DNA of 35,990 nucleotides from Thraustochytrium sp. TN22 (lineage: Eukaryota > Sar > Bigyra > Thraustochytrida > Thraustochytriidae): assembly GCA_013306675.1 (NCBI GenBank), contig JABLUY010000313.1, forward strand, positions 1-35,990. Reading direction: 5' to 3'. The notes beneath the pieces are model-generated. The model worked only from the letters and a program-made list of their open reading frames with translations, was not told the origin of the DNA and made no database searches. This document shows positions 1,173-27,981 of this stretch, piece by piece; the first letter of the stretch is position 1, and every line of letters begins with the position of its first letter. Both the position numbers and the translations under genes were made by a program.

Positions 1173-2861
1173 ATGACGCAGCTGGCGCGCCACGAGAGGC
1201 GGCGGATGAGGCCTGACAGGAGCGCTCTTGCACGCTGCAGGCAGTGCGCAGCAGGCCTTGTGGCAATTGCCGCTGCGGTGGCCGCGCCCGGTGCCACGGC
1301 GCTCCAGCTCAACATGCACGAGGTGCAGTCTCGCGAGGCGCACCTCGAGACCGGGGCGCTGCCGAGGTGGATCAAGGGCACGCTGTACATCAACGGACCC
1401 TCCGTCCACGACTTCTCCGACTTCGGGGTGGACCTCGTTACCGAACACTTCTTTGACGGCCTCGGCGCTGTCACAGCGCTCGAACTGAATGCCACGAGCG
1501 TCCATCTCAGCACGCGCATCCAAGAGACCGAGACCTTCCGCCGTCTGCGCGACGAAGGCCGCTACGAGTCCGTCACCTTCGGAACGCCCATGTGCTGGGC
1601 CTCTCTCTGGTACCGGCCGTATGACCTCCTCATTGACAATACCCCCATCAATCTGTACCCGTACGAGGGCAAGCTCTTTGCCACCTCGGACGGCGCATAC
1701 CGGCACGGCATTGATCCAGACACGCTCGAGACCGTGGCTGCACACAACCAGGACCCGATTGGTCCCATGGGCGCCGCCCATCCAGCTGTTGACCCGAGCA
1801 CCGGAGAGGTCTTCAACTATGCGGGTCCGACGCGCGTGCGCCTGGACATGTCGACCTTGGAGCCCGTTGCGGAGTTTCACTTGGTGCAGGAGTTCCACCG
1901 CTCGGATGGCGCCCTGCAGCGTAAGGAGCTCGGCACGGTGTGGGCTCCGGCGCTTTGGATCTCGCACAGCGTCGGCCTCACCGAGGACTTCGTGCTCTAC
2001 CGCATCCTCAGCGAGCGGCCGCGCATGTCGCTCGATACGAGCAGCCTGGCCAACTTTCTGCACTTTGAGCCGGAGCAGAACGTCGAGGTGATCGCGGCGG
2101 GCCGCCGCGGCCAAGGTGTGCACCGCATGGTCTGCAACGAGGCCTTCAGCAGCTTCCACATCGTCAACAGCTTCACGCGCAGAGCCAGCCGCGAGATCGT
2201 TCTTGACTCGGTTGCCTCCGACTCCGGCCTGCTCAACGCGCGCACCAAGGACGTCTTCCACGAGGGCTACAAGCCGACCTCCGCACGACCCAACACCACG
2301 ATGCCTTTCATGGCCGAGAGTATCAACTACTTTTACAAGCGCTGCGTGCTCCGCGGCCTGCCGCTCGGCGACGACGAGGACGACGACCGGGCCGACAAGG
2401 GCCTCCTTGAGCCGACCTGCTCGTGCGCCAACATCTTCCGCTACCCGTTCGAGCTCCCGGTCATTAACCCGCTCTTCCGCATGCGCCGCCATCGCTACGT
2501 GTGGAGCGCGGCGGGCCAGGGCGCGACGCTTTGGTCCAACCAGATTGTCAAGTTTGACATGAAGTACGCCAACCCGAACGCGAAACCGGACGCTTACATG
2601 CTCACGTGGGACCCGCCGGCCGGATTTGTCGTCGGCGAGCCGCGCATGGTGCCCGCGCCAGGCAAGGACAATGCCGAGGAGGACGATGGCGTCATTCTCT
2701 TCATTCTCTATCACGAGACCTTGCCAATTTCGCGTCTCGTCACGCTCGATGCCGCCACGCTCGAGACTATGGCCGTGCACGCCCTTCCGGTGGACATGCC
2801 GATGCAGGTGCACGGCGTGTACAAGGACCTGAATCGCGCAGGGCGCATTTTTGCGAACTAA
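1173..2861 (+). CDS. Carotenoid cleavage oxygenase (RPE65/BCO family), probably secretory-pathway targeted
   Basis: Single-exon 562-residue protein of the carotenoid oxygenase family, non-haem iron enzymes that cleave carotenoid or apocarotenoid double bonds. The family's seven-bladed propeller holds Fe(II) with four histidines. Candidates here are H203 (AAHP), H265 (SHSVGLT), H329 (SFHIVN) and H547 (VHGV). Two of the three second-shell glutamates are visible at E427 (FELPVIN) and E489 (GEPRMVPAPG). The third, expected near residue 173 (ATSDG), appears as aspartate. Other family motifs are GTLYINGP (69-76) and the phrase DGLGAV (95-100). Residues 24-44 form a hydrophobic alanine-rich segment ending in ATA, like a signal peptide; starting at M12 (1206) would give a more ordinary signal sequence, so the start is uncertain. 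An acidic loop (400-406) precedes the E427 motif. The gene converges on the chromatin gene. Substrate and cleavage position cannot be read from sequence. Confidence 0.93.
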   Translation: MTQLARHERRRMRPDRSALARCRQCAAGLVAIAAAVAAPGATALQLNMHEVQSREAHLETGALPRWIKGTLYINGPSVHDFSDFGVDLVTEHFFDGLGAVTALELNATSVHLSTRIQETETFRRLRDEGRYESVTFGTPMCWASLWYRPYDLLIDNTPINLYPYEGKLFATSDGAYRHGIDPDTLETVAAHNQDPIGPMGAAHPAVDPSTGEVFNYAGPTRVRLDMSTLEPVAEFHLVQEFHRSDGALQRKELGTVWAPALWISHSVGLTEDFVLYRILSERPRMSLDTSSLANFLHFEPEQNVEVIAAGRRGQGVHRMVCNEAFSSFHIVNSFTRRASREIVLDSVASDSGLLNARTKDVFHEGYKPTSARPNTTMPFMAESINYFYKRCVLRGLPLGDDEDDDRADKGLLEPTCSCANIFRYPFELPVINPLFRMRRHRYVWSAAGQGATLWSNQIVKFDMKYANPNAKPDAYMLTWDPPAGFVVGEPRMVPAPGKDNAEEDDGVILFILYHETLPISRLVTLDAATLETMAVHALPVDMPMQVHGVYKDLNRAGRIFAN

Positions 2862-3254: not shown

Positions 3255-6200
3255 TCATCTCTTCTTGGCCTTCTTCTTCTTGCGGTTACGTGCGGAGCGC
3301 TTGAGCGCCGAGATGCGGTTCGCACGGCGCGACAGCTCAGGAAACAAAATGGCAGAGTCGAGCGCCGTGATCCGCACAGCCAGGCTGCTGGCCGTCTTGG
3401 TCCGCAGGGCGAAGCCAGCATCGCCGTACAGGTTGTAATACCAATTCTCCAGCGGCACCGCGGTGTCAATGATGGCGCATTCGAGCATGCACGCAGCCTG
3501 ACGCAGGTCGCGCCAGTTGGCTGCCGAAGTGACGAGGCGGATCCAGCCGCGACGGCGGTCGTAGAGCCAGACGCTGTTGTCCTCGATCTTGTGCAGGTGG
3601 ATGGCAAGCTCCATGTTGAGGAGAACAACTTTGAGGTCCAGCAGACACTTGTCCTCGAAGCGGGTACCCGTCTGCAGCTGCACGGGCGAGGCGTCCATCA
3701 CCGCACGCAGGTGACGCTCGCAGGCGTGCGGCCCCACAACCGAAGCCGAGAAGCCCGAGTTGCAGAATCGCTCCGGCGTGGGCGCCGAGGTGCCCTCCTT
3801 GGACACCTCGCGCAGGTGCGCCCCAACCAGCGTGTCCGCGAGCGCGCGGCTCTCCGATACCTTTTCAGCGTGTACCTCAGGCGCCGGCGCATTGCACGCG
3901 TCGTCCAGGAGCTCGAACTTGCGGTCCCACACGTCGCCCCGCGACAGGAGCTTGCAACGGGACTGGATCGAGGTCAGCAGCGCCGCCTCACGCTTGCCCT
4001 TGCCGTTGAGACTATCCAGGAAGCGGTTCATGTTCCGCCGCCCCGCGATGACGCGCCACCCGAGCTCGTCCGGCTCCGCGATGCCATGCTGGACGGCCTC
4101 AGCGCCCAGCAGCACGAAGAGCTTCGAATGGTCCCCGGCAAAGTACATGTACCGGTTGAAGAAGCGGTCCAGACCGAGGAACTTGGGCCGCACCGAAACC
4201 GTCTGCAGCTTCCACTCCAACTCCGCCTTCCAGCGGCGTGCGTCGTCCTTCTGCTTTTTCTTGGCCTTTTGCCGGTCGATGTCGCGCTCCACGCGCTCGA
4301 TCGCACGCAACAGGCTCTTGTTCAGGTCGTTCTCGTGCTCCTTCTTGAACTGCGCAAGCTTGCGACTCATGCGCTTCTGCTCCGCAACGCCCTCGCCCGA
4401 GAGCCGATCCAGAACGCCGTCGTCTTCCTCGTCCGCCGTCTCCGTCTTGGGCGCCGCCTCGATCACCGGCGGGTTCAGCCGCCACTTCTGCCGTGTGCGC
4501 AAGGTGATCCACATGCGTCGGTCAATCTCCTCGCGAAAGAGCGCCGTGTCGCTCGCCAGCTCGCAGAGCACGCGCAGCATCTGCGTGCGCAGGTCGAAAT
4601 CGATGTCCTCGTAGCTCTGCGTGCCGAGCGCAATCACGAACCGCCGAAGAAGCGCAAGCTCGTGCCCATTCGCCCACCGCTCCGGCGCGCATGGGTCCGC
4701 CGCACCGTTCGTTGGCTTGCCGTCCGAACCCTGCATTGCCGCAGCGCGGTAGCGCCGCTGCTCCTCGATTGTCTGCGTCTCGAGTCGCTCCAGCTCGCGC
4801 TTCTCGTCTTCGATGCCGTTGCGCTCGCTGTCTACGGCGAGGAGCGCCGAGTCGCGCTCCATCGCCAGTAGCTCCTCCAAGGTCACGTACTCCACGCGGC
4901 TCTCCAGGTGCACGTACAGCAGCTCGAACTTCTTGGTGGTCTCGTCGTACGAGACGACCGACGCCTCCTTGCAGCCCTCCTCTTCGAAGAATTTCAGCAC
5001 GATCAGGCCCAAGTGCGAGTCTGGCGTGTCGCGCGCCAGCTCCAGGTGCTTGGACCGATCTGCCGGGGGTGCCTTGGGAACATGCTCCGGAGGCAGCTGC
5101 TCGGCGCCCGCGCCCAGCATGCCGGCGGTCAACTTGGCCGGCCCTTCCTCCTCTTCTCCCTCCTGCTCATCGACCTCGGCCTCCTCCTCCTCCTCCTCCT
5201 CCTGCTCCTCCTCACCGTCATCCCCTTCTTCCTCCTGCTCCACGACGTCTTCTTCCGCCTCCACCGCCACTTGCTGCTCCACATGATTGCCGTTGTCCGT
5301 CATGGCAGCACGAGCACCGGCGGGAGCAGAGTCTGCTGCGCCACTCGCAGCTGCCGGGGCCGGGGCCGGGGCCATTTCGACTTCCTCGTCCTCATCCTCG
5401 TTGTCATCGTCATCGTCGTTGTCGCCCTTGGCCCGCTTACTCTTCCTGCGCTCCTTGCGCTTGGCCTTCTTCTCCTTCTTTTTGTCCGCGTAGGCGTCGT
5501 ACAGTGTGAGCGCGCTGGTTAGATCATCCTCGGCCAGGCTCACCTCGGCGCCATCATCATCAAACTTGATGCGCCACATGGGGCCCTTGCTCGAGTAAGC
5601 GACCACGGTGCCGCGAACAAGCGCATCCGGGTCGCTCGCATCTGCAGATTGCGCAACGCGTGAGCCCACATGCAAGCCCTCCTTGCGGAAGCCACGGTGG
5701 CTCAGCTTGTCTGTGAGCGTGTAATCAGCCACGGTCGCACGCACGTGCTTGCGCTTGCGGCTCTTCCTCTTCTTCTTGCCGTCCTCGTCGTCCGCGCCAG
5801 CACCGTCGCCCGCCGCCGCTGCCGCAGTCATCTCGGTGTCACCGTCGTCGGCCTGCGCAGCGCCGCCCCCAGCGCCCGCGCCGTCCTCGCCGGCGTCCGC
5901 TCCCCCTGCCACCTCGGTGCCGCCATCCACGAGCCACGGGGCGGCCGGGAGACCACTGCTGTACGGATACGGGTTCATGGCGAGCATGCTGTCTTCCTTG
6001 AGAACCCAGGCGCGAAAAAGCGTGCGCGTCTTGGACGTGAGCGCATGCGCGAGCTTGTAAATGTAAGAGCCGCGCAGGTTGTACAACTTGCAGTTGAACC
6101 AGATCAGCTCGATGTCGTCCAGGACTTGCCCACAGTCCTGATAGTGCGACGGGTCCTGCAGCTGCTTGTCCACGGTGCGAAGCGCCATGGGCTTGTCTAC

Positions 6201-9200
6201 GATCGCCAGGTAGTCCGGGTAAGTCGCCGTGTCGACCTCCTCCCAGAAAACGCTGGCCTGGTCCTCGTTGCCAATGTGGCGCACCACAGCCTGGCAGCGC
6301 AGACGCAGCTCCGAGGTCGCGTCCACGTTGGCCGCCGCCTCGGACACTGGGTTCGGGCCTTGCTTGGGCGCCTTGCGCGCCGGTGTGGACGCCGCACCGC
6401 CACTTCCGGGCGCAACAGAGCTCGAACCAGTGGCAGCAGCAGCGGCGGCGCCGCTGCCTGTCCCCGTGCTGGAGCGGCTCTTGCGCTTGCGCGAAGATGA
6501 GCTCGTAGCGGCCGCCTTGGCGCTCCCGCCAGCCTTCTTGGCGGAAGAGGTCGAGGCGCGAGGTGCGGCCGCCTGGGCCGCCTCGGACTTGGCGCGCTCC
6601 TCCGCGGCCGCAGCCTCTCCTGCGGCTTCCGCGGCCGTCTCGTCCGCAGTGGCCATGAGCGCTGGATTGATGGCGCGGATCGTATGCACAAGCGCCTCAA
6701 GGATAAGGCGCTTGCACGGGCCGGCGGCATTCGACTTGAAAACGCCCTTGCTGATGCTCTGGTTCAGGGCCGCGCGCAACTGCGTCTCGGACTCCGGGAT
6801 CTGCGGGAGCATCTCGTTGACATGGGCGCGGATGCGCGCGCCGCGGTTCGTGGGCATATCGCGCACCTGGACGAGGCTCTGCACCCAGTCAGGCAACGAG
6901 GCGAGCTTGTCGCCGTTGAGCGCGACAATCTGGGGCGGCACAAGCGTCTGCACGGCCTTGACTTTACCCTTGGCTGCCTTGGCCTTGACCTTGGGCATAG
7001 GGCCAGCGATGGGCGCGAGGCGGCGCACGCCAGCCATGGACGCACCGCCCACTGCTGACGAGGTGTCGGCGTTGCGTGCCGAGGCGGCAGGCGTGTTGCT
7101 CACCTTCGACGCGTTCAAAATGGCCGCCGAGATGGCCTGCAGCTTACCAGCCTCCGTCGGGTAATAAAGGAGGGCCTCCGCGGACCGGCTGCCGCTGTAA
7201 GGCGCCTCCTCGAGCGCGTCCACGCGCGCCAGAATGGCTACCATGGACGCCTCGCGCATCGCTACGAGCCGCATCTTGGCAGCCTTACGCGCCTGGCGCT
7301 TGCTGTGGCCTGTCGGCTCGCCGTCCTCGTCCACCTCATCCTCGTCCTCGTTGTCATCCTCCTCGTCTTCCTCGCCCCGCGCGTTGCGGCTCATGACGCA
7401 GCTCACCGAAACCTGTGTGTGATGCAAAATCTCCTTGAAGTACTGCGTCTCGCGGCCCAGCTCCATCTGCCGAATCTGCAAGATACACAGGTAACGGAGG
7501 AGCTCGGGCCAGGTGGCATCGTTGAGCGGAGCGTATCGGCGCGCCGACACGCTACGTTCGCGCGCAGCTTCGCTCATGTTGCTCTCGTGCGTACTCTGCG
7601 AGCCGAGGAAGAGCATCTCCGCCAGGCCAACGTGCATCGGGACAAGCAGGTGCATGTCGCAGGCGGCAAGCGCCTGCCGCACTTCGGGCAGCAACACAAC
7701 AGGCGTGCGTTCCGTGCCTTCCTTGAAGCGAGGCCGTCCGTCAGCCCGCGGACCGGCCGCGCTCGCGTTGCTCTTGCGCTTAGAGGACTTTGTCTTTTTG
7801 GCCTTCTTGGCTGACCCGGCCTTGGCCTTGGACCTGCCGCCGTTTGCGACAATGGACCCGCGCCGCGAGGCGCCGTCCTCGTCAACGTCCATGTTGTCCT
7901 CATCGTCCTCCTCGTCGTCGTCGTCCTCATCTTCCTCTTCGTCGTCGTCGTCGTCCTCCTCCTCGTCACCGTAGTCGTCGTCCTCGTCGTCGTCCACGTC
8001 GAGATCGTCCTCATTGCCACCCATGTCGAGATCGTCGTCATCATCGCCCTCGCCGTCGTCGTCGTCGTTCGTCGTGAAAAACTCGCCGTCCACACCGGGG
8101 CGCACGAGGCCATCCTCATGCTCCGGGACCTTACACAGGTTGAAGAGCGGGGCAAACTTAGCAAAGAAGTCCCAGATCTCCAGAAGGTCACCGCAGCGCG
8201 GGCCCGGGAAGAGCCTACGCATGGTGTCAACGGCCAGCGGCTTGATGGAGGCGGTGAGCTCCAGGTCGTCCGGGAGGTCAACCTCGGTGTGCGCGCCGAG
8301 GACGTCCTCAATGGCGAGGCCGGCCTTCTCGAGCTGGTCGTAAAAGCCGAAGAGCTCCTTTTTCACCTGTTCGGTGCGGGCTGTCTTACGGCCACGCTCG
8401 CGCTCCGCGTGCTCGAGCTTGTCGAGACGCGCGCGCGCCGCGGCGAGCTTGCGCTGCTGCTTGTCGAACTGATCCTCGGCGCGCTTCAGGTCAGTTCGCA
8501 CGGAGTTCTGCTCCTTCTTGGGCAGCTCGTCAATGTCCGCGGCCGCGGCGGTGGCGCGATCGAGCTCCTTTTGCAAAATGTCCAGGGCCTCCTCCTCGAA
8601 CTTTAGCTGATTGCGAACCATCACGAGCTCCTGCTCCTTCTCGTCCTTGTGTTCATCTCTGTTCTTCTTGATCTCCTCGCGCAGGTCTTTGAGCGCGTCG
8701 AGATGGTCCTGGCGCTCACGGATGCGGGCGTCCTTGTCCTCCTTGCGAATACGCACGACGTCCTGCTTCGCCTTGCGCTTGGTCTCCACGCGCATGGACC
8801 GCGCGTGGCGGTCCTCGATGCGCATGTGGCGGCGCGCTGCGGCTTCGACACGGCGGTCCACGGCGTCCTGGTGCTTCTCCATGCGCTTGAGCGCCTTGTC
8901 GATGCGGTCGCCCACCATCTTGAGCCGCTTCTCGAGCTTTTTGTTCTCCTTGTCGCGACCGCCGCGCTGGAAGCGGAAGTGGTAATTCTGCGCTGCGTCC
9001 ATGAGCGGGAGCGCCTCGATCGTCTCGACGACCTTCTTCTCCTCGATGCCAAACAGATACGAGCCGAGCTGCTCGTTGAGGAGCGGCGTGAGGTCGACCT
9101 GCCACCAGAGAATCTGGTGCGGCTGGGGGAGCAAGTGAAGGTTCGGGGCACCCGCGAGGTAGTTTTTGTCGCCCAAGCCAGGCAGGTCTGGCTTGGTGGT

Positions 9201-12149
9201 GTCCTCGAGCGCGTCGACAGCCTCGTCTATCTTGCGCTCCTCGAGCGTCTTGCGGCGCTCCTCGGCCAGCTCGTCGCCGTGCTCCGCACGCAAGGTCTCG
9301 ATCTTGGCGAGGTCCTCGGCAGTGAGCGCCTTCTTCAGCTTGTCCAGCGTCTCGCCCTGGTACTGGCAGCTCTTCCAGCCATCGTCTGCCATCTTGGACG
9401 GGTTCACAACGCGCTTCATGGTGATGCTAAACGCGGACGGCGTGTCGAAGTGCTTGCCCTCGCAGATGATGATGCCGTCCTCCCGCAGCGAGGCTTCCCA
9501 GAGCTTATGCTTGTACTCGAGGCTGATCCCGGGCCCGTTCGGACCGGCCTGCACACGGCCGAGGCGAATAAAGTCCACGAGCTGTGCCGCGCGACGCTTT
9601 TTATTCAGCTCTGCCTCCGGCCGGCCGGCCGCGCCCGAGACCACCGAGGAACGGTCCGGATCGTCCGTGTTGGCGTCCGACAAGTTGCCGCTCGAGACAC
9701 CCAGAGCGCGTTCGGCCTTGATCTGGGCGGCCCCCGCCGCGCCGCCATCGGGCTCCGCCTTCACTGGCCCCGCCTTGGTCACCACCGAGACCGTCGCGGG
9801 CGTGTCGTCGCCGTCCGCACCGGCCGTCGCCTTGCCCGCGGCCGGCTCGTGATCGTTGTCGTTGTCGTCGACATCGTCGTCGACATCGTCGTCGTCGTCC
9901 TCCTCCTCGTCCTCCTCGTCCTCCTCGTCGTCCTCTTCGTCGTCCGCGTCCGCGTCCGGGTCTGCATCTGCGTTGGCGTCGATGGGGCCCGTCCCAACAT
10001 CAGTCAGCGCGAGCGCACTGCTGGAGGAGGACTCGCGGCGCCGCGCAGCCTCGGCAGCCAGGTCGCGCTTGACGTTGGCCACGACCTTCTTAAGGAGGCC
10101 GTTGAGGATCTTCTTGACCTCTTTGGAGATAATCTTCATCTTCTTGTCGTCATCCTCGACCTTGGCGAGCGCGCGCGAGGCGTTGGACGGCAGCGCGTTG
10201 AGAGCGCAGACGCGCTCCGAAGCCTCGACCCCTGCGGCCATGCGACCCCAGTAGTCATGCATACCGATGAGAATATCGACGATCATGAGTGTCCAGGCGG
10301 CCATAGGGCTGATGCCCTCCTTGCAGAGGCCGGTAGAGACCTCGGTGACGCGGAAGATGGGCGCGACCTGACCCTCGGCCGCGACAATCTCGTTGCGGTA
10401 TGTGGACATGGCCAGCGGGCGCCGCGAGCTAAAGAAGCGGCACTCGCTCAGAAAACCGACCGGGTAGACATGCTTGCGTGTGACGAAGCGCGGCAGGTCG
10501 ACGACCTGGCCCAGCTGCACGAGCGTCACGTAGGCGTTGAGCTTGATAGGCGCCTTGAGTTCCACGGGCGCGCCCACGCGCGTGCCCTCCGGCAGAAGTG
10601 CCCGGACCGCGGCGATTCGCGCGTCTGCCTTGGGACCCTCCACGACAACGAACCGCGAGGCGAACTCCTTGCAGGCAACGCGGAAGGCCTCCTCGCGCGA
10701 GCACTCCTCGTCCGCCGAGAGCCCGAGGTAGCCGGCAACGTCCTTGCGCGTGCGCAGGCGCTTAAACTGCGGCGTGAGGAAGTAAGAATCGGTGCTACCG
10801 GCTGTGACGCCCTGCATACGGCGGATGACCTCGATCGTCCAGCCGCCGAGCTTGTCGCGCGCACAGACGCGATCGAGCCAGCTCAGGATAGCGCGCAGCT
10901 TGGAGAAGTGCGGCTTGAATTCGGCGTTGTCCGAGGCGAAGTCCGGCTCTGTGGCGCTAGTGGTGAAGATAATCTCAATGCCCTTCATGTCACGCGCCGG
11001 CCTGCGACCTGGCGTGGACTTCTTGCCGCGCTTGCCGGGCGTCGCGCCCTTGGCCGCAGTACCGTTCGGGCTCACGCCCGCGGACGACTCTCCGCCGCCG
11101 CCCGCCGCGCCAGACTGCCGCGGGGTCCCAGGCGGGCCCTCGCCGTCGGAGAAGTCAGAGTCCTCATCCTCGTCGTGCAAGTCGTCGTCCTCGTCATCCT
11201 CGTCCAAGTCCTCATCCTCCGCGTCATCGTCCCGAGCGTTCTCCGACGCTTGCTTAGATGGCAGCTTGCGCTGGCGTTTGGGCTTGCGATCTGAGCTGGT
11301 CGCGGCGGCTAGCGTTCTGCTGGCGGCGGCAGCCGGAGCGGTAGTTGCGGTGGTGGCGGGGGTGGTGGTGGTGGCTGCCGCGCGCTTCTTGGACGAGGGC
11401 TCCTTGACTGGTTTGGCTGTTGTCTTGCCAGCGCTCTCGGAGGAAGCCGCGCCAGCAGCCTTGGCAGCGCGTGGCTTGGCCGGCGTCTTGGTCGCGGGCT
11501 TGGTCGCGGGCTTAGCCGCGAGCTTGGCCGCGGGCTTGGCGGCCGTGGTCTTTACAGTTGCATCCTGTGAAAGCTGCGGTTGTGTCTGTGCCGCCAGCGC
11601 CACCGGCGCAGGCAGGACGCCGCGATTGGCCATGGAGGCAGCGAGAAGGGCACTAGCAGCGCTGAGGGGCGAAGAGGCGACCGGGGCGGCCGGTCCCAGG
11701 CCACGCTCATAAATGGCCAGGGGCACGCCGACCCAGACAGGGGCGCCGACAGGGCGCTCGAGCATCCAGGCCTGGAAGAGGCGCGTGAACTCGCTGCGAA
11801 GCAGGCTGGCCATGATGCTGATTGCGGGGTGGCCGGAGATGGCGCACCATGGCTCGAAGACTAGGTGCACGTCGCGATGGAACTCCGCGATGGACTCATA
11901 GGGAGCCGCTCGGGGCTGGTCGCGCTCGAAGGCGGGGCGGCCCGGCAGGCCCAGCCCCCTGGCCGTGGCGTCGAGCCGGGCGTGCACCTGCCTCAGGTTC
12001 ATGGGCGTCTTAACGTGCGCCGCATAGTCCTGATACTCTTGGACCGGGACGTCGGCGCAGAATATGGCGGCCTGATCCGTGCTGGCCAGCTTGCGCACGA
12101 TGGCCTCGGCGGCCTGCACCGCGTCGGCCGTCCAGGCGGCCTTCTCCAT
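3255..12149 (-). CDS. Giant BAZ2-like chromatin protein: bromodomain, TAM/MBD, FYRN-FYRC, RAMA, DDT, WHIM, Tudor-like
   Basis: One uninterrupted 2964-residue frame, probably a nuclear chromatin-remodelling subunit or reader. Approximate layout: a diverged bromodomain at 5-130, starting almost at the initiator methionine; basic Lys/Ala linkers; TAM/MBD fold at 430-475 (GGWTIEVIRR, then LRTRKDVAGYLGL); FYRN at 545-605 (HVYPVGF, then IFRVTE) with a FYRC-like continuation (ISPMAAW); RAMA-like domain at 855-940 (LREDGIIICEGKHFDTPSAF, then DGWKSC); coiled coil at 1065-1290; DDT-like helix at 1320 (LLEIWDFFAKFAPLF); plant-RLT-like TWPELLRYL at 1545; a second bromodomain at 1940-2040 (YPDYLAIVDKPM, then FNCKLYN); Tudor-like barrels at 2153-2217 and 2375-2430; WHIM1 at 2497-2545; WHIM2 at 2650-2725 (LGLDRFFNRYMYF); WHIM3-like C terminus; and a lysine-rich C-terminal tail like a nuclear signal. 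Long Asp/Glu runs separate the modules. No PHD finger and no ATPase are visible. Family knowledge links DDT/WHIM proteins to ISWI motors, so partnership with an ISWI ATPase is inference. Confidence 0.9.
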   Translation of the reverse strand: MEKAAWTADAVQAAEAIVRKLASTDQAAIFCADVPVQEYQDYAAHVKTPMNLRQVHARLDATARGLGLPGRPAFERDQPRAAPYESIAEFHRDVHLVFEPWCAISGHPAISIMASLLRSEFTRLFQAWMLERPVGAPVWVGVPLAIYERGLGPAAPVASSPLSAASALLAASMANRGVLPAPVALAAQTQPQLSQDATVKTTAAKPAAKLAAKPATKPATKTPAKPRAAKAAGAASSESAGKTTAKPVKEPSSKKRAAATTTTPATTATTAPAAAASRTLAAATSSDRKPKRQRKLPSKQASENARDDDAEDEDLDEDDEDDDLHDEDEDSDFSDGEGPPGTPRQSGAAGGGGESSAGVSPNGTAAKGATPGKRGKKSTPGRRPARDMKGIEIIFTTSATEPDFASDNAEFKPHFSKLRAILSWLDRVCARDKLGGWTIEVIRRMQGVTAGSTDSYFLTPQFKRLRTRKDVAGYLGLSADEECSREEAFRVACKEFASRFVVVEGPKADARIAAVRALLPEGTRVGAPVELKAPIKLNAYVTLVQLGQVVDLPRFVTRKHVYPVGFLSECRFFSSRRPLAMSTYRNEIVAAEGQVAPIFRVTEVSTGLCKEGISPMAAWTLMIVDILIGMHDYWGRMAAGVEASERVCALNALPSNASRALAKVEDDDKKMKIISKEVKKILNGLLKKVVANVKRDLAAEAARRRESSSSSALALTDVGTGPIDANADADPDADADDEEDDEEDEEDEEEDDDDDVDDDVDDNDNDHEPAAGKATAGADGDDTPATVSVVTKAGPVKAEPDGGAAGAAQIKAERALGVSSGNLSDANTDDPDRSSVVSGAAGRPEAELNKKRRAAQLVDFIRLGRVQAGPNGPGISLEYKHKLWEASLREDGIIICEGKHFDTPSAFSITMKRVVNPSKMADDGWKSCQYQGETLDKLKKALTAEDLAKIETLRAEHGDELAEERRKTLEERKIDEAVDALEDTTKPDLPGLGDKNYLAGAPNLHLLPQPHQILWWQVDLTPLLNEQLGSYLFGIEEKKVVETIEALPLMDAAQNYHFRFQRGGRDKENKKLEKRLKMVGDRIDKALKRMEKHQDAVDRRVEAAARRHMRIEDRHARSMRVETKRKAKQDVVRIRKEDKDARIRERQDHLDALKDLREEIKKNRDEHKDEKEQELVMVRNQLKFEEEALDILQKELDRATAAAADIDELPKKEQNSVRTDLKRAEDQFDKQQRKLAAARARLDKLEHAERERGRKTARTEQVKKELFGFYDQLEKAGLAIEDVLGAHTEVDLPDDLELTASIKPLAVDTMRRLFPGPRCGDLLEIWDFFAKFAPLFNLCKVPEHEDGLVRPGVDGEFFTTNDDDDGEGDDDDDLDMGGNEDDLDVDDDEDDDYGDEEEDDDDDEEEDEDDDDEEDDEDNMDVDEDGASRRGSIVANGGRSKAKAGSAKKAKKTKSSKRKSNASAAGPRADGRPRFKEGTERTPVVLLPEVRQALAACDMHLLVPMHVGLAEMLFLGSQSTHESNMSEAARERSVSARRYAPLNDATWPELLRYLCILQIRQMELGRETQYFKEILHHTQVSVSCVMSRNARGEEDEEDDNEDEDEVDEDGEPTGHSKRQARKAAKMRLVAMREASMVAILARVDALEEAPYSGSRSAEALLYYPTEAGKLQAISAAILNASKVSNTPAASARNADTSSAVGGASMAGVRRLAPIAGPMPKVKAKAAKGKVKAVQTLVPPQIVALNGDKLASLPDWVQSLVQVRDMPTNRGARIRAHVNEMLPQIPESETQLRAALNQSISKGVFKSNAAGPCKRLILEALVHTIRAINPALMATADETAAEAAGEAAAAEERAKSEAAQAAAPRASTSSAKKAGGSAKAAATSSSSRKRKSRSSTGTGSGAAAAAATGSSSVAPGSGGAASTPARKAPKQGPNPVSEAAANVDATSELRLRCQAVVRHIGNEDQASVFWEEVDTATYPDYLAIVDKPMALRTVDKQLQDPSHYQDCGQVLDDIELIWFNCKLYNLRGSYIYKLAHALTSKTRTLFRAWVLKEDSMLAMNPYPYSSGLPAAPWLVDGGTEVAGGADAGEDGAGAGGGAAQADDGDTEMTAAAAAGDGAGADDEDGKKKRKSRKRKHVRATVADYTLTDKLSHRGFRKEGLHVGSRVAQSADASDPDALVRGTVVAYSSKGPMWRIKFDDDGAEVSLAEDDLTSALTLYDAYADKKKEKKAKRKERRKSKRAKGDNDDDDDNEDEDEEVEMAPAPAPAAASGAADSAPAGARAAMTDNGNHVEQQVAVEAEEDVVEQEEEGDDGEEEQEEEEEEEAEVDEQEGEEEEGPAKLTAGMLGAGAEQLPPEHVPKAPPADRSKHLELARDTPDSHLGLIVLKFFEEEGCKEASVVSYDETTKKFELLYVHLESRVEYVTLEELLAMERDSALLAVDSERNGIEDEKRELERLETQTIEEQRRYRAAAMQGSDGKPTNGAADPCAPERWANGHELALLRRFVIALGTQSYEDIDFDLRTQMLRVLCELASDTALFREEIDRRMWITLRTRQKWRLNPPVIEAAPKTETADEEDDGVLDRLSGEGVAEQKRMSRKLAQFKKEHENDLNKSLLRAIERVERDIDRQKAKKKQKDDARRWKAELEWKLQTVSVRPKFLGLDRFFNRYMYFAGDHSKLFVLLGAEAVQHGIAEPDELGWRVIAGRRNMNRFLDSLNGKGKREAALLTSIQSRCKLLSRGDVWDRKFELLDDACNAPAPEVHAEKVSESRALADTLVGAHLREVSKEGTSAPTPERFCNSGFSASVVGPHACERHLRAVMDASPVQLQTGTRFEDKCLLDLKVVLLNMELAIHLHKIEDNSVWLYDRRRGWIRLVTSAANWRDLRQAACMLECAIIDTAVPLENWYYNLYGDAGFALRTKTASSLAVRITALDSAILFPELSRRANRISALKRSARNRKKKKAKKR

Positions 12150-13514: not shown

Positions 13515-16500
13515 TCAGCAGTTGCCGAAGGAGGCCTCCTGCAGCGCAAGGTCAAACTTGCGCACGAGCTGGGCCTTGGAGGAATACTTGGGCAGCCAGA
13601 GGTGGAAGGAGCATGTGGCTACGCTTGGGAGGCGCTCGTCCTCCGCGGGGGTGTCGACGGAGGTGACCTCAATGGTGAAGGGGCGGTGGGCGAAGCCAGC
13701 CTGGCCGATGGCGCGCCAGCCGGTGGTCCAGAGCAGGAGACGCTGGCGGTCCTTGCGCGAGAGGGCGGAGGCGTACTCCCAGAACCAGCGGAGCTGCGGC
13801 GCATCCTCTTCAGTGGCACCCTTGTACACAGTGTTGGCCTTCCAACGCGGGATGGAGATGTCGCGGTCGCCCTCGACCAGCGCCTGCAGCTCGGTTGGCG
13901 TGAGGAGCATGAGCGCGAGCTGGCGAGGCACGATCTCGTGGAAGCCGCGCTTCACAAATGCCAGCTGCTGGGCTACGTTCTCCACGGAGAGCTTGAAGGT
14001 AAGCAGCTCCAGGTACCGGTCAAAGTTCTCAGGGCGAATCTCGTCCATCTCGCCGCCCTCATACAGGTTGCTCATCATGCGCTGCATGCGGCGGAGCTGG
14101 CCAGGCGAAGCAGCCTCAGAGGCGCGCGCGCGGCGCCGCTCGTCCTCGGAGTCTTCCTCGCCGCTGTCCGTGTCTGCGTCCGCCTCCATGTCGTCGGCCG
14201 GGTGGATCACCGTGGCGGCCGCTGCCACGGTGGTGTCCACGGAGACGCCGCCGTTAGCGGTGCGGCGGCGCTTGGGCGAGGGGGGAGGCGCCTGGGCGGC
14301 GGCGGCGGCGGCGGCGGCGGCGAGGGGCGGCCGAGGGGCGACCATCTCGGCGTTCGCGCTGGGGCGCTCGTCGTTGTGATCGTCGTCCGCGTTGCCGTCC
14401 TCCGCGTCGTCGTTGTCCTCCTCCTCCTCCTCGTCATCTTCCTCCACGATGGTCCGACTGAGCCTGGCAGCAGCCTGGTCGGCGGCGCGCTGCTTCGCGT
14501 CCGCAAGAAGCTGGTTCTGGCGGCTGAGAAGGTTGCGCAGGGCGGCGCGGTCCTGCGTGTCGCGCGCCACCTGGAGAGCGCGCTGCAGCTCGCCGAGCGA
14601 ACGGATCTGGTCGGCGTTCTTGGCGTGCGGGCTGTGGGCGAGCGAGCGCTTGCGCGCCGGTGGCGAGGTGGGCGGCGTGCGCGCGTCGCGCTCAAAGGCC
14701 TCTTTCATCATGAGCTCGCGGCTGTTGACCGTGAAGGTGAGGTCGCGCAGCGAAGCCGCAAACGCGGGCGCGTCCGTGTCGCGCAGCTGGCGCAGGCGCG
14801 AGAAGGTTGAGTAGTACTGCTTGGACACGCTGCGCAGGTCGTCAAAGGTGGGCTGCTCCTCGAGCAGGAGCTTGCACCAGGAGGGCACGAGCGCCACGCC
14901 GAGCGGGTCGCCGTAGAGCACGGAGAGCCCAAGCACGCGACCCATGAGCAGATACCAGCGTTGCTGGTCCTCGTGCGACATGCCAGCGAAGCTGGGGTCC
15001 GGCGAGAGCTGCACGCTGTCGTTCGGGTGGAAGCCGTTGATGACGAGGCCAAAGCGCGGGTCGAAGAGGTCGCGCGAGAGGCGACTGAGCCAGTCGCGGC
15101 GCACGCCACCCGCGTCGATGGCGACCTGCTCCACCTCGGCCGAGACATACTGGATCTTGAGCGCGTTGGCGCGGAGCTGATCCGCGTCGATCGTTTTGAA
15201 CTTGCACATGGTGGACTCGAGGATGTTGCTCGGGTCGATGGCGATCTCGAGCGCTGCGAAGTCAACGTCGTTGGCGGCCGTCAGCGGGCGCGAGCGCGTA
15301 GCGCACGCCAACACCTTGAGGCGCACGTCCAGCGTGACCTTGTCGTGCAGCCCGCTCGGATAGCGCTTGACGATCTCGTGCAGCGCCTTGGCGGCGCTGC
15401 AGACGAGCGGCTGGTTCTTGGCATTGGATGCGATGATGGACGCAAGGAGCGACACGGCGCCCTCGCCGTGCACGGCCTCCACGCAGGCCTCGGCGGCGCC
15501 GCCGTTCATCATGTAGATGAGCGTCCAGAGGCTGTTCCACATGAGCGAGTCGCCCGACGACCCGCTTCGCAGGAGCTCGACCAGCGCCTTGGACGCGGCC
15601 ACGTGGCGCGCCTGCGCAGCCGGGTTCAGAGGCGCCGCTGGGACGCGGCCTGGCCCGTGTGCAGCGAGCGAGGGCCCCGGCACGGCCGTTGCCGCAGAGG
15701 ACGACGAGGTGGCCAGCATACTTTGGCGCTTGTTCAGGTACCCGAGGCCGCCCACGGTATTGAGAAGCACCTCATAGTTGACCTGGCGCTGGCCGCGGTG
15801 CACGAGAACGTCGACAAGCACCTCGTCGCAGTTCCGCTCGAGCGCCAGATCCGTGATCCGCAAGCCCTGCGGCGTGCTGTGCTCTACAAAACAGGCCAGC
15901 GCCCGCGTCGCATTACAGAGCTCCTGCACGGAGGGCGAGCTCGCGATAAAGGTCTTGAGCTCGTCCAAGGCACCTGCCTGCGCCATGTGCAGCCCGAGTC
16001 GCGGCGAGTGCTCCACGAGCAGGCCGACCTCCTGCAAGAGGTCAGCGCGCAGCGCCTCCGGGAAGCCTGCGCTCTGGCGCAGCAGGCCCACGATGCTGCG
16101 GAAGGCGCCGTGCCGCTGCAGCGCGTCGAGCGCCGGGCCGCCCAGCTTCGCCATGCGCCGCAGTACGCGAAGTGCGTTTCCCGTGGTGTGCTGCGCGCGC
16201 AGATAATCATCGGACTCCTCGGGCTCCTCGAGGGTTTGCTCTTGGACTCCTTGTTTCCCCTGCGCGCTCTCGCGCGCGGCCACCGCGACGGCGATGGCGT
16301 CCACAGCCGCCACGAGGCTCTCCACGAGGTTCAGGCAGCGCGCGCTCGCGAGGTCGACAGCTCCCAGGATCCCTGCGAGGAGGCTGGAGCAGGCGTGAAT
16401 GACGCCGTCCTCCAGTCGATGCTCCCGCGCGAGCACCGTGGCGAGCTGTAGCGCGCGCGGCGACTGCGCCAGGCAGCGCGCGCGCGAGGGGCTGCCGTTG

Positions 16501-17417
16501 AGCGCGTAGGTGGTCGTCCAGACGACCGTCTCCAGCAGATGCGGCGTAAGCGCCTCGTGACGCGCGATTAGGCGCATCAAGAGGTCGGGCGCATCCGTAA
16601 GAACGTCCTGCGGAGGCGTAGCGTGGTTGTCGAGCAGGTAGCCGAGGCCCTGGCAGAGCGTGATGCACCGGTTGTCGAGCTGAGTGGATGGCGCGCCGCC
16701 CTCAAGCGCCTCCGCGGTGGCGCGGATCGAGCGCAGGAGGCCCGCAAAGGCCGCCGCGGCGCGCGAGGGGTCCGACTCGCAGATGCGCGCGAGCAGGCTG
16801 GCGACGCGCGCGTTGAGCAGCGAGCTGCGTACGCAGCCGCGCTCCAGCACGAGGATGAGCGCGGCGCCCACGTCGCTGCCGCGCAGGAGGTCGTCAAGCG
16901 CCACCTTAGCCTCCACGAGGAAGACCAGCACCTGGACGGCGAGCAGCAGGACGCCCTCCGTGGAGCTGGGCCGTCGCAGGCGATCGGCGATGGCTTCCAC
17001 GACGCCGGCGCGCAGCGCCTCTTGAATACGGTCGGGGCTGCGCTGCACCATGTAGCCGAGCGCGGCCATGACCTGCAGCACGAAGACCTGCTGCCCATCG
17101 CGCGCCTCGCGCACGCGCTGCACCAGCACGGACACCACGCCCGCGCGTGCCAGCGCCTCCACGTTGCGCGGGTCCTGCTGGATGAGCGCGCGCAGCTCCT
17201 TGAGCCGTTGCAGTTCACGCGCGTCCTCCTCCTCCCAGCCCTCGCCCTCGCCCTCGCCCTCGCCCTCGCCCTGCCGCTGCTCCAGCTCTTCGTGCTCAGC
17301 GCCGTGCTCGGCCGCTGGCGCCAGCGCGTGCCCACGCGCCGCCAGCGCGCTGCAGCCGCCGCCGCCGCGCCCCTCGCGCAGCGCCGCCACCACTCGCGCC
17401 GCTGCGCTCGCCTCCAT
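13515..17417 (-). CDS. Armadillo-repeat HECT-type E3 ubiquitin ligase with large insertion in the HECT N-lobe
   Basis: A 1300-residue ligase that should take ubiquitin from an E2 onto its own cysteine and pass it to substrates. Residues about 70-690 are helical armadillo/HEAT-like repeats (for example PLVCSAAKALHEIVKRYP), probably for substrate binding. The HECT domain begins near 735 and ends at the C terminus. The catalytic cysteine is C1269 in LPSVATCSF, 31 residues before the end, the usual HECT spacing. The N-lobe is interrupted by about 205 residues (roughly 909-1114) of acidic, Ala- and Gln-rich low complexity. I chose the ATG at 17417 (MEASAAARVV). The frame stays open 89 codons further to 17684, but that extension is Ser-Glu-Arg-Ala repeats produced by a GCTC microsatellite. 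A CTCGCC hexamer repeat encodes a Gly-Glu run near residue 50. ARM plus HECT recalls plant UPL3 and animal TRIP12, but orthology is not shown. Confidence 0.93.
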   Translation of the reverse strand: MEASAAARVVAALREGRGGGGCSALAARGHALAPAAEHGAEHEELEQRQGEGEGEGEGEGWEEEDARELQRLKELRALIQQDPRNVEALARAGVVSVLVQRVREARDGQQVFVLQVMAALGYMVQRSPDRIQEALRAGVVEAIADRLRRPSSTEGVLLLAVQVLVFLVEAKVALDDLLRGSDVGAALILVLERGCVRSSLLNARVASLLARICESDPSRAAAAFAGLLRSIRATAEALEGGAPSTQLDNRCITLCQGLGYLLDNHATPPQDVLTDAPDLLMRLIARHEALTPHLLETVVWTTTYALNGSPSRARCLAQSPRALQLATVLAREHRLEDGVIHACSSLLAGILGAVDLASARCLNLVESLVAAVDAIAVAVAARESAQGKQGVQEQTLEEPEESDDYLRAQHTTGNALRVLRRMAKLGGPALDALQRHGAFRSIVGLLRQSAGFPEALRADLLQEVGLLVEHSPRLGLHMAQAGALDELKTFIASSPSVQELCNATRALACFVEHSTPQGLRITDLALERNCDEVLVDVLVHRGQRQVNYEVLLNTVGGLGYLNKRQSMLATSSSSAATAVPGPSLAAHGPGRVPAAPLNPAAQARHVAASKALVELLRSGSSGDSLMWNSLWTLIYMMNGGAAEACVEAVHGEGAVSLLASIIASNAKNQPLVCSAAKALHEIVKRYPSGLHDKVTLDVRLKVLACATRSRPLTAANDVDFAALEIAIDPSNILESTMCKFKTIDADQLRANALKIQYVSAEVEQVAIDAGGVRRDWLSRLSRDLFDPRFGLVINGFHPNDSVQLSPDPSFAGMSHEDQQRWYLLMGRVLGLSVLYGDPLGVALVPSWCKLLLEEQPTFDDLRSVSKQYYSTFSRLRQLRDTDAPAFAASLRDLTFTVNSRELMMKEAFERDARTPPTSPPARKRSLAHSPHAKNADQIRSLGELQRALQVARDTQDRAALRNLLSRQNQLLADAKQRAADQAAARLSRTIVEEDDEEEEEDNDDAEDGNADDDHNDERPSANAEMVAPRPPLAAAAAAAAAQAPPPSPKRRRTANGGVSVDTTVAAAATVIHPADDMEADADTDSGEEDSEDERRRARASEAASPGQLRRMQRMMSNLYEGGEMDEIRPENFDRYLELLTFKLSVENVAQQLAFVKRGFHEIVPRQLALMLLTPTELQALVEGDRDISIPRWKANTVYKGATEEDAPQLRWFWEYASALSRKDRQRLLLWTTGWRAIGQAGFAHRPFTIEVTSVDTPAEDERLPSVATCSFHLWLPKYSSKAQLVRKFDLALQEASFGNC

Positions 17418-27072: not shown

Positions 27073-27981
27073 ATGCTGCGCAAGGTGGACTGCTCGCCGG
27101 TGACGCAGCGGCTGCTGTCCCGGGCGCGGGAGCGCGTGGCGGGCGTGGCAGGGCTCGAGAAGCTGCGCGTCTGCGCACTGCAGGTGGGCGGCGAGCAGCA
27201 GGCGTGGTACCTGAACGGGAGGAAACACGCGGAGCGGCTGGCCAACAAGGTGCTGGGCGTGAACTGGGAGACGCGCGATCTGCCGGCGGACTGCACGCAG
27301 AATGAGGCCCTGGCGTCCATCGCGGCGCTCAACAGCGACCAGAGCGTGGCGGGCATCCTCGTCGTGAGGCCTGTGCCGGAGCAGCTCCCGATTCAGGTTT
27401 TGCAGCAGGCCGTGGACCCGCGCAAGGACGTGGAGGGCATGCACCCGAACTCCATCGGCCGCGTCGTGTATGGCAGCAAGCTCCAGGGCGCCATCCTGTG
27501 GCCCTGCACTGCCAAGGCCTCCGTCGAGGTGCTGCGGCAGGCCATGGTTGACGTGCACGAGAACCCGGAGCAGACCATCCGTGGCGCCGAGGTGCTCGTG
27601 GTTGGCAACTCCGACGTCCTGGCCAAGCCCATCGTGTCCATCCTGCACGGCGAGGGCGCCACGGTGACGGTGTGCAACCCGACCGTGGCCAACTTTGCCG
27701 CCTACACGCGCGCCGCGGATGTTATCATTACCAGCGCCAACCTCGGCAAGCCCATCATCCACGGCGACATGATTAACCCCGGCACTATCCTTCTTGACCT
27801 CGGCATGAACGTTGCGGAGAACAACTTCATCGGCGGTGACGCCGACCTCTCCTCGTGCCAGGACAGGCTCGCCGCCTTTTCGTCCCTGGCGCACGGCATT
27901 GGCCGCGTGCGCTCCGCTGTCCTTGTTGACAACCTTGCGCAGGCCATTCAGGCCAGCTATGGCCGCGGCCCTTTTAGGTAA
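27073..27981 (+). CDS. Methylenetetrahydrofolate dehydrogenase-family enzyme (FolD/MTHFD-like) with substituted catalytic residues
   Basis: A 302-residue protein, the normal length for the family, which oxidises 5,10-methylene-THF and, in bifunctional members, hydrolyses methenyl-THF. Recognisable motifs are GILVVRPVPEQ (94-104), DPRKDVEGMHP (115-125), PCT (144-146), VLVVGNSDVLAKPI (174-187) of the nucleotide site, LGKPIIHGDMI (224-234) and LLDLGMNV (240-247). By alignment to the family, catalytic lysine (human K56) is R50 (YLNGR), glutamine (Q100) is V98, and aspartate (D125) is E121. The usual C-terminal PGGVGPMT is replaced by HGIGRVRS. This suggests a monofunctional dehydrogenase, as in yeast Mtd1, or a changed reaction. 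I chose the ATG at 27073 because it begins at the conserved helix and no other ATG precedes it. No organelle-targeting peptide is evident, so cytosol is the default. Confidence 0.88.
   Translation: MLRKVDCSPVTQRLLSRARERVAGVAGLEKLRVCALQVGGEQQAWYLNGRKHAERLANKVLGVNWETRDLPADCTQNEALASIAALNSDQSVAGILVVRPVPEQLPIQVLQQAVDPRKDVEGMHPNSIGRVVYGSKLQGAILWPCTAKASVEVLRQAMVDVHENPEQTIRGAEVLVVGNSDVLAKPIVSILHGEGATVTVCNPTVANFAAYTRAADVIITSANLGKPIIHGDMINPGTILLDLGMNVAENNFIGGDADLSSCQDRLAAFSSLAHGIGRVRSAVLVDNLAQAIQASYGRGPFR

Follow-up and report, generated by a model that had tools for sequence, protein, structure and literature searches.

Domain composition and possible role of an MBD9-like protein carrying a RAMA domain in Thraustochytrium sp. 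TN22

Does the long open reading frame on a contig of the thraustochytrid Thraustochytrium sp. TN22 encode a chromatin remodeller subunit of a new kind, or does its domain composition have a known counterpart? The window analysed is the whole of contig C237 (JABLUY010000313.1, 35,990 nt), from a genome of 37.9 Mb in 453 contigs. The original prediction described the encoded protein, here called P0001, as a BAZ2-like remodeller subunit with an apparently new combination of domains.

Reading frame and domain content

The intron-free ORF of 2964 codons runs on the minus strand from an ATG at 12149 to a stop at 3255, the plus-strand frame over 3255..12149 being interrupted by stops, and the nearest in-frame stop 5' of the ATG lies 166 codons upstream. 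The single exon of 2964 residues that had been predicted for this interval therefore stands, once it is read on the minus strand. GC3 ranged from 0.72 to 0.89 across 20 blocks of 150 codons each and exceeded the GC content of the other two codon positions in 19 of them, the exception being the acidic block 2251–2400. This pattern argues for a single continuous coding exon and suggests that the acidic stretches are coding rather than intronic. Alternatively, two genes (e.g. a BRD1-MBD-FYR-RAMA gene and a DDT-BRD-WHIM gene) could have been joined by chance or in the assembly, with a boundary that could hide in the long disordered and acidic stretches. Against this are the 2964 codons without a stop, the GC3 range and a same-genome protein on contig C110, in which FYRN-FYRC, a WPE motif, a bromodomain and WSD occur in the same order as in P0001 within one ORF of 2232 aa; we consider a fusion highly improbable.

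Pfam scans were run twice, with P0001 whole and as eight separate segments, and MBD, FYRC and WHIM1 rose above their cut-offs only as segments. The order of the features (Table 1) is bromodomain 1, MBD, FYRN, N-terminal half of FYRC, acidic stretch, RAMA, C-terminal half of FYRC, a charged stretch that is probably a coiled coil, DDT pieces, WPE motif, bromodomain 2, Tudor-like candidate, WHIM1 and WSD. The FYRN, RAMA, TAM/MBD and WHIM domains of the original prediction are supported by these scans, as is WSD, and RAMA and MBD also by PDB matches to MPND and MBD2 (see below). A search of P0001 against the NCBIfam profiles gave two matches only, both irrelevant (E 0.2 and 0.81), and in a scan of viral contigs for relatives none of 600 pattern matches was confirmed. 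Structure predictions made without an alignment were of low confidence for residues 400–1080 (mean pLDDT 36.9) and 2131–2240 (mean pLDDT 50.6) and speak neither for nor against the domains; Foldseek returned 128 matches to the latter model at E ≤ 10, none of which reached E ≤ 0.001.

Table 1. Features of P0001 and their positions in the window
Feature	Residues	Position	Strand	Evidence
Single-exon ORF (P0001)	2964 aa	3255..12149	-	Frame reading; GC3 0.72–0.89 over 20 blocks
Bromodomain 1	about 10–131	11757..12122	-	30.4 bits as segment, profile 2–47 of 84
MBD	436–480	10710..10844	-	Pfam segment; PDB MBD2 2ky8
FYRN	534–589	10383..10550	-	Pfam 37 bits whole, 40.8 as segment
FYRC, N-terminal half	about 590–623	10281..10382	-	BLASTP and shuffles vs C110
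Acidic stretch before RAMA	705–790	9780..10037	-	>50% D/E in 50-residue windows
RAMA, inside FYRC insert	843–944	9318..9623	-	Pfam 55.7 bits; PDB MPND 7ydt
FYRC, C-terminal half	1027–1061	8967..9071	-	Pfam segment match; shuffles vs C110
Charged stretch	about 1065–1290	8280..8957	-	Sequence inspection
DDT candidate, first part	about 1314–1338	8136..8210	-	14.4 bits, under cut-off 22
Acidic insert in DDT candidate	1342–1446	7812..8126	-	Acidic composition
DDT candidate, second part, and WPE-type motif	about 1482–1515 and 1542–1563	7461..7706	-	BLASTP, shuffles
Bromodomain 2	1952–2035	6045..6296	-	Best stretch of 82.3-bit match; canonical Asn present
Tudor-like barrel 1, candidate	about 2156–2217	5499..5684	-	Weak similarity; low-confidence model
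WHIM1	2508–2543	4521..4628	-	21.2 bits as segment, 17.9 whole, cut-off 19.1
WSD / WHIM2	2654–2730	3960..4190	-	43.3 bits whole, 47.4 as segment

The bromodomain family matched P0001 with 82.3 bits over two stretches. The canonical Asn of bromodomain 2 is the residue that forms part of the acetyl-lysine pocket, whereas in one pairwise alignment bromodomain 1 carries Gly at this position and is perhaps degenerate. Both of the predicted bromodomains, including the extra N-terminal one, were thus found by Pfam, the latter with an apparently changed pocket residue. No PHD finger was found by Pfam in the whole protein up to E 10 or by one C4HC3 pattern, as the original prediction had said.

The predicted DDT domain and the two predicted Tudor-like barrels fared less well, and because of them the original prediction is only partly confirmed. 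DDT stayed under the Pfam cut-off in every form tried (14.7 bits with the pieces joined), and none of the 17 sequences obtained in a PDB search of the region up to E 10 was named as a DDT protein. The shuffles are nevertheless in its favour, as the score of the joined pieces was reached by 0 of 2000 shuffles against the DDT-WPE stretch of C77 and by 2 of 2000 against the C4 protein. Taken singly against C77, the first piece had its score reached by 2 of 2000 shuffles and the second, the match of which was the WPE motif, by 7 of 2000. With C110 the alignment was limited to the WPE motif (C110 1262–1283, BLASTP E 0.031). On these comparisons, the DDT candidate may be split by the acidic insert. 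Tudor-like stretch 1 had no Pfam match and only weakly resembled the corresponding Tudor-like regions in two DDT proteins encoded by the same genome (score reached by 2 and 1 of 2000 shuffles). The second stretch behaved like shuffled sequence in the same comparison (690 and 1278 of 2000) and is hence unsupported, and the two stretches did not match each other (556 of 2000 shuffles reached the score). Residues 1600–1700 and 1740–1850, tried as WHIM-like and winged-helix-like regions, had no Pfam match and were dropped. A PDB search with the C-terminal WHIM/WSD region gave 7 sequences, none relevant.

RAMA and the apparently split FYRC

The Pfam match to FYRC covered only positions 50–84 of the 84 in the profile, with 19 bits for the whole protein and 24.2 for the segment (cut-off 21), and the N-terminal half alone gave no Pfam match. 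The FYRC of C110 is unbroken (profile 1–83 of 84), whereas that of P0001 is interrupted. By BLASTP, residues 541–623 (FYRN and the N-terminal half of FYRC) aligned with C110 265–345 (E 1e-08) and residues 1029–1074 (the C-terminal half) with C110 366–415 (E 0.25), the gap between the halves being 405 residues in P0001 versus 20 in C110. When each half was compared with its counterpart in C110, 0 of 2000 shuffles scored as high. Joining the halves raised the Pfam score modestly, to 28.0 bits, or 26.6 with FYRN in front, compared with 22.9 for the C-terminal half alone and 22.4 for the C-terminal half behind a wrong partner; the best stretch remained the C-terminal half even then. The joined FYR region aligned in order with KMT2D 917–989 and 995–1042, with 5 residues between the parts and weak scores (4.2 and 10.8 bits, E 0.035 overall), and TBRG1 aligned weakly from FYRN into the N-terminal half of FYRC (E 0.18, ranked behind an unrelated HSP70 match). 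By these weak PDB alignments, FYRN and both parts of FYRC, as found in TBRG1 and KMT2/MLL proteins, are recognisable in P0001 too.

From these alignments, the FYRC of P0001 looks split, with a RAMA-bearing insert between its halves, and the position of RAMA is likely to reflect a domain-in-domain insertion. Alternatively, residues 1027–1061 could be a separate partial FYRC-like stretch, FYRC being unsplit and RAMA merely lying beside the FYR region. The BLASTP match of the C-terminal half, weak by itself, and the restriction of the Pfam match to this half, joined or not, would be in line with that reading, but the shuffles for each half and the occurrence of both parts in order in KMT2D speak against it, and we regard it as improbable. 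MLL1 has a long insert between FYRN and FYRC, whereas the insert of P0001 lies within FYRC. The FYRN-FYRC pair of the original prediction is thus present, but with an FYRC that appears to be divided around RAMA.

The RAMA domain itself scored well above its Pfam cut-off of 35.2 bits, over positions 7–103 of the 107 in the profile, and its sole PDB match up to E 10 was human MPND (7ydt, E 3.3e-09). When we placed the MPND numbering onto the RAMA alignment, taking the contact residues from PMC9963953, T903 (a conservative replacement), S905 and W925 of P0001 aligned with the DNA-contact residues S113, S115 and W135, which are reported to be required for DNA binding by MPND (PMC9963953). The RAMA sequence, the contact Ser/Thr, Ser and Trp and an acidic neighbour are therefore common to both proteins, but in MPND the partner of RAMA is an MPN domain, whereas in P0001 RAMA is part of a remodeller-type subunit. 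Among the papers listed in literature searches, judged by title, opening of the abstract and term counts, none describes a RAMA domain joined to FYR or DDT-WHIM, although an earlier mention is possible. In these searches we found no precedent for RAMA in an MBD9-like protein, nor for its apparent place within a split FYRC.

Comparison with MBD9 and BAZ2

The MBD of P0001 scored 23.8 bits as a segment and 20.2 in the whole protein (cut-off 21), with MBD2 as best PDB match (2ky8, E 8.7e-07), and was the one match among 2 candidates scored when the profile was searched against its own genome. A single C5-methyltransferase frame was found in this genome, above the cut-off for PF00145 and below that for TIGR00675, and from its motifs we take it to be DNMT2-like. 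R444, Y456 and R466 of P0001 align, with the same spacing, with R166, Y178 and R188 of MBD2, which are described as critical to its selectivity for methylated DNA (PMC9520026). An MBD with apparently intact mCpG residues does not fit neatly with such a genome.

Among known proteins, Arabidopsis MBD9 (At3g01460) has the closest composition. Its listed domains are MBD, bromodomain, two PHD fingers, FYRN, FYRC, DDT and WSD (PMC10451976); on this list, MBD, FYRN, FYRC, bromodomain and WSD are held in common with P0001, together with DDT as a candidate. Differences from MBD9 are as follows: 1) No PHD finger was found in P0001, versus two in MBD9. 2) RAMA within FYRC and the extra N-terminal bromodomain are found in P0001. 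3) The mCpG residues are kept in the MBD of P0001, whereas that of MBD9 is described as lacking key residues (PMC10451976, PMC6659704). MBD9 is reported to associate with SWR1, and strongly with ISWI (CHR11/17) (PMC6659704, PMC10451976). As the closest known composition is that of plant MBD9 rather than BAZ2, most of the domain combination is already known. The original prediction was thus reasonable in proposing a remodeller subunit, but less so in its BAZ2 likeness and in the novelty of the combination as a whole.

In BAZ2 proteins, the PHD finger and the bromodomain are C-terminal, after MBD-DDT-WHIM; bromodomain 2 of P0001 precedes WHIM1/WSD, unlike this arrangement. The composition given for BAZ2A/B is MBD, DDT, WHIM1, WSD and bromodomain (PMC5575660), so that MBD/TAM, WHIM1, WSD and bromodomain are common to BAZ2A/TIP5, BAZ2B and P0001, with DDT again as a candidate, but neither FYR nor RAMA, both present in P0001, appears in that list. 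These shared domains, the R/Y/R residues of the MBD and its best match to MBD2 would suit a silencing subunit of the BAZ2/TIP5 type, with an MBD reading methyl-CpG. We think such a subunit quite improbable, given the FYR region, the lack of a PHD finger, the position of bromodomain 2 and a sole C5-methyltransferase that is presumably DNMT2-like, so that mCpG may be absent. Since the PHD fingers are missing, we do not assign P0001 to either the MBD9 or the BAZ2 family; most likely, it works like MBD9.

Same-genome partners and proposed role

Searches of the TN22 genome were run exon by exon, so that absences in them are soft. P0001 and C110 aligned collinearly by BLASTP in the bromodomain (E 7e-04) and WSD (E 0.002) also; in addition to the uninterrupted FYRC, C110 differs in having Med26/TFIIS-N-like and WW domains and in matching neither MBD nor RAMA at E ≤ 0.1. 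In the C4 protein, DDT, bromodomain and WHIM1 are ordered as in P0001. WSD gave 4 matches, P0001 included, and DDT 3 matches above the cut-off, P0001 not among them. For FYRC, 2 candidates were scored and the 1 match at E ≤ 0.001 was C110, the FYRC of P0001 not being reported. RAMA gave 4 matches in 3 genes, all above the cut-off, and the other two RAMA genes carry a PHD finger (one above and one below the Pfam cut-off). One ISWI with SLIDE and one YL1 protein were also found. As a separate observation, a PfaA-type PUFA synthase frame of 3044 codons (2539.7 bits with its neighbours, cut-off 1010.1) is adjoined by a divergent, ketosynthase-bearing frame of 2083 codons. This pairing, the scarcity of introns and the size of the genome would suit a thraustochytrid.

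MT-A70 gave 2 matches, both above the cut-off. The first, an exon on C71, scored 189.5 bits against the Tetrahymena MTA1-complex chain (7f4r, 7yi8) and 96 against METTL3; in these PDB entries, the chain is named MT-a70 family protein. This MTA1(AMT1)-like exon presumably excludes the catalytic DPPW region, so that the evidence covers only part of a putative MTA1-like enzyme. The second, a gene on C332, matched 5 PDB sequences at E ≤ 0.001, which are MTA9/AMT7 chains or an unnamed putative methyltransferase.

The composition, the relative on C110 and the partners that seem to be present in the genome all suggest that P0001 acts with ISWI and may serve SWR1 as well. We consider it probable that P0001 assists a nucleosome remodeller (ISWI, perhaps SWR1) as a non-catalytic accessory subunit similar to MBD9, an estimate that leaves aside any reading of N6-methyladenine (6mA). 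Counting against it are the DDT score below the cut-off, the lack of a PHD finger and the DDT and FYRC of P0001 that went unreported in the genome searches. What the sequence shows is the architecture; by analogy with the families concerned, i) DDT and WHIM1/WSD would hold the ISWI ATPase and help to set nucleosome spacing, ii) bromodomain 2 would read acetylated histone tails, iii) the FYR region would fold as one unit, with RAMA projecting as a loop-mounted DNA-binding module, and iv) RAMA and the MBD would dock the complex on linker DNA. In a further and most speculative step, RAMA would prefer 6mA put into post-promoter linkers by the MTA1(AMT1)/MTA9-like enzymes, and P0001 would then tie adenine methylation to the spacing, or to the H2A.Z loading, of the first nucleosomes. 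That P0001 couples AMT1-type adenine methylation to spacing in this way, as an ISWI/SWR1 subunit with a 6mA-sensing RAMA mounted in FYR, is possible but doubtful.

It is in this last step only that a second reading departs from the MBD9-like subunit, so that our confidences in the two overlap: the role would be the same, but RAMA would be a clamp on DNA or histones that is independent of sequence and methylation, 6mA would be irrelevant, and the neighbouring acidic stretch would help histone contact. We give this reading a little less than an even chance. For the RAMA of MPND, contacts to the DNA backbone but none to bases and no effect of 6mA on binding were reported, and the acidic regions of MPND raise histone binding (PMC9963953); in P0001, too, an acidic stretch precedes RAMA. 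On the other side are the 6mA preference of MPND reported by Kweon et al. 2019, as cited in PMC11037411 and PMC9963953, and the fact, suggestive only, that the genome holding the MTA1- and MTA9-like sequences has three RAMA genes. As PMC9963953 found no such preference, it is disputed whether RAMA reads 6mA; the hypothesis that the RAMA of P0001 senses 6mA is plausible given the genome and put in doubt by the MPND data.

In a survey of 18 species, robust 6mA was found only in those encoding AMT1, and in most of the AMT1-encoding protists surveyed, one thraustochytrid included, it lay between the nucleosomes that follow promoters (PMC12695648). For Aurantiochytrium limacinum, which is a thraustochytrid (PMC7262427), three 6mA peaks per gene start were described (PMC12695648). 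According to the authors of the survey, the role of 6mA in nucleosome positioning is unclear and the finding of potential readers is key (PMC12695648). P0001 unites RAMA with the make-up of a remodeller subunit and is encoded alongside MTA1- and MTA9-like sequences, which makes it a concrete candidate for the missing link between 6mA and nucleosomes. Should the proposed role be borne out, P0001 could contribute to an explanation of how 6mA and nucleosome placement are linked.

Neighbouring ORFs and other loci

The features located in the window and elsewhere in the TN22 assembly are listed below. On contig C124, the PfaA-type frame together with a divergent ketosynthase-bearing frame is the typical thraustochytrid arrangement.

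Features in the window and on other contigs (C) and loci (L) of the TN22 genome
Feature	Location	Strand	Match
RPE65/carotenoid oxygenase family ORF	window 1173-2858	+	236.9 bits
MBD of the 2964-aa protein	window 10710-10844	-	sole MBD match in genome
HECT E3 ligase ORF	window 13515-17417	-	172.4 bits
Methylene-THF dehydrogenase/cyclohydrolase ORF	window 27073-27978	+	
EF-hand and ankyrin-repeat ORF	window 30558-35429	-	
MTA1/AMT1-like exon	C71, L009		
MTA9/AMT7-like gene	C332, L010		
Second FYR remodeller-type protein (2232 aa)	C110, L018 765-7463	+	domain matches
PfaA-type PUFA synthase frame (3044 codons) and divergent ketosynthase-bearing frame	C124, L025-L028		
Additional RAMA gene	C398, L022 394-5370	+	
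Additional RAMA gene	C435, L023 3460-6123	-	

Candidate DNA methylation enzymes

The MBD retains the mCpG-binding residues, although the only C5-methyltransferase found in the genome is DNMT2-like, a combination that fits together poorly. An exon-by-exon search for MT-A70 genes matched only C71 and C332 and turned up nothing of the METTL3 or METTL14 type. By sequence, the MTA1/AMT1-like exon and the MTA9/AMT7-like gene hint at a putative DNA 6mA writer pair.

FYR and RAMA proteins

The second FYR protein contains FYRN-FYRC, a Med26/TFIIS-N-like domain (in two stretches), a bromodomain, WSD and a WW domain. One of the two additional RAMA genes carries a pair of RAMA domains together with a PHD-like finger that scores below the cut-off; the other encodes PHD and RAMA. 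RAMA seems to recur as a chromatin module in this genome.
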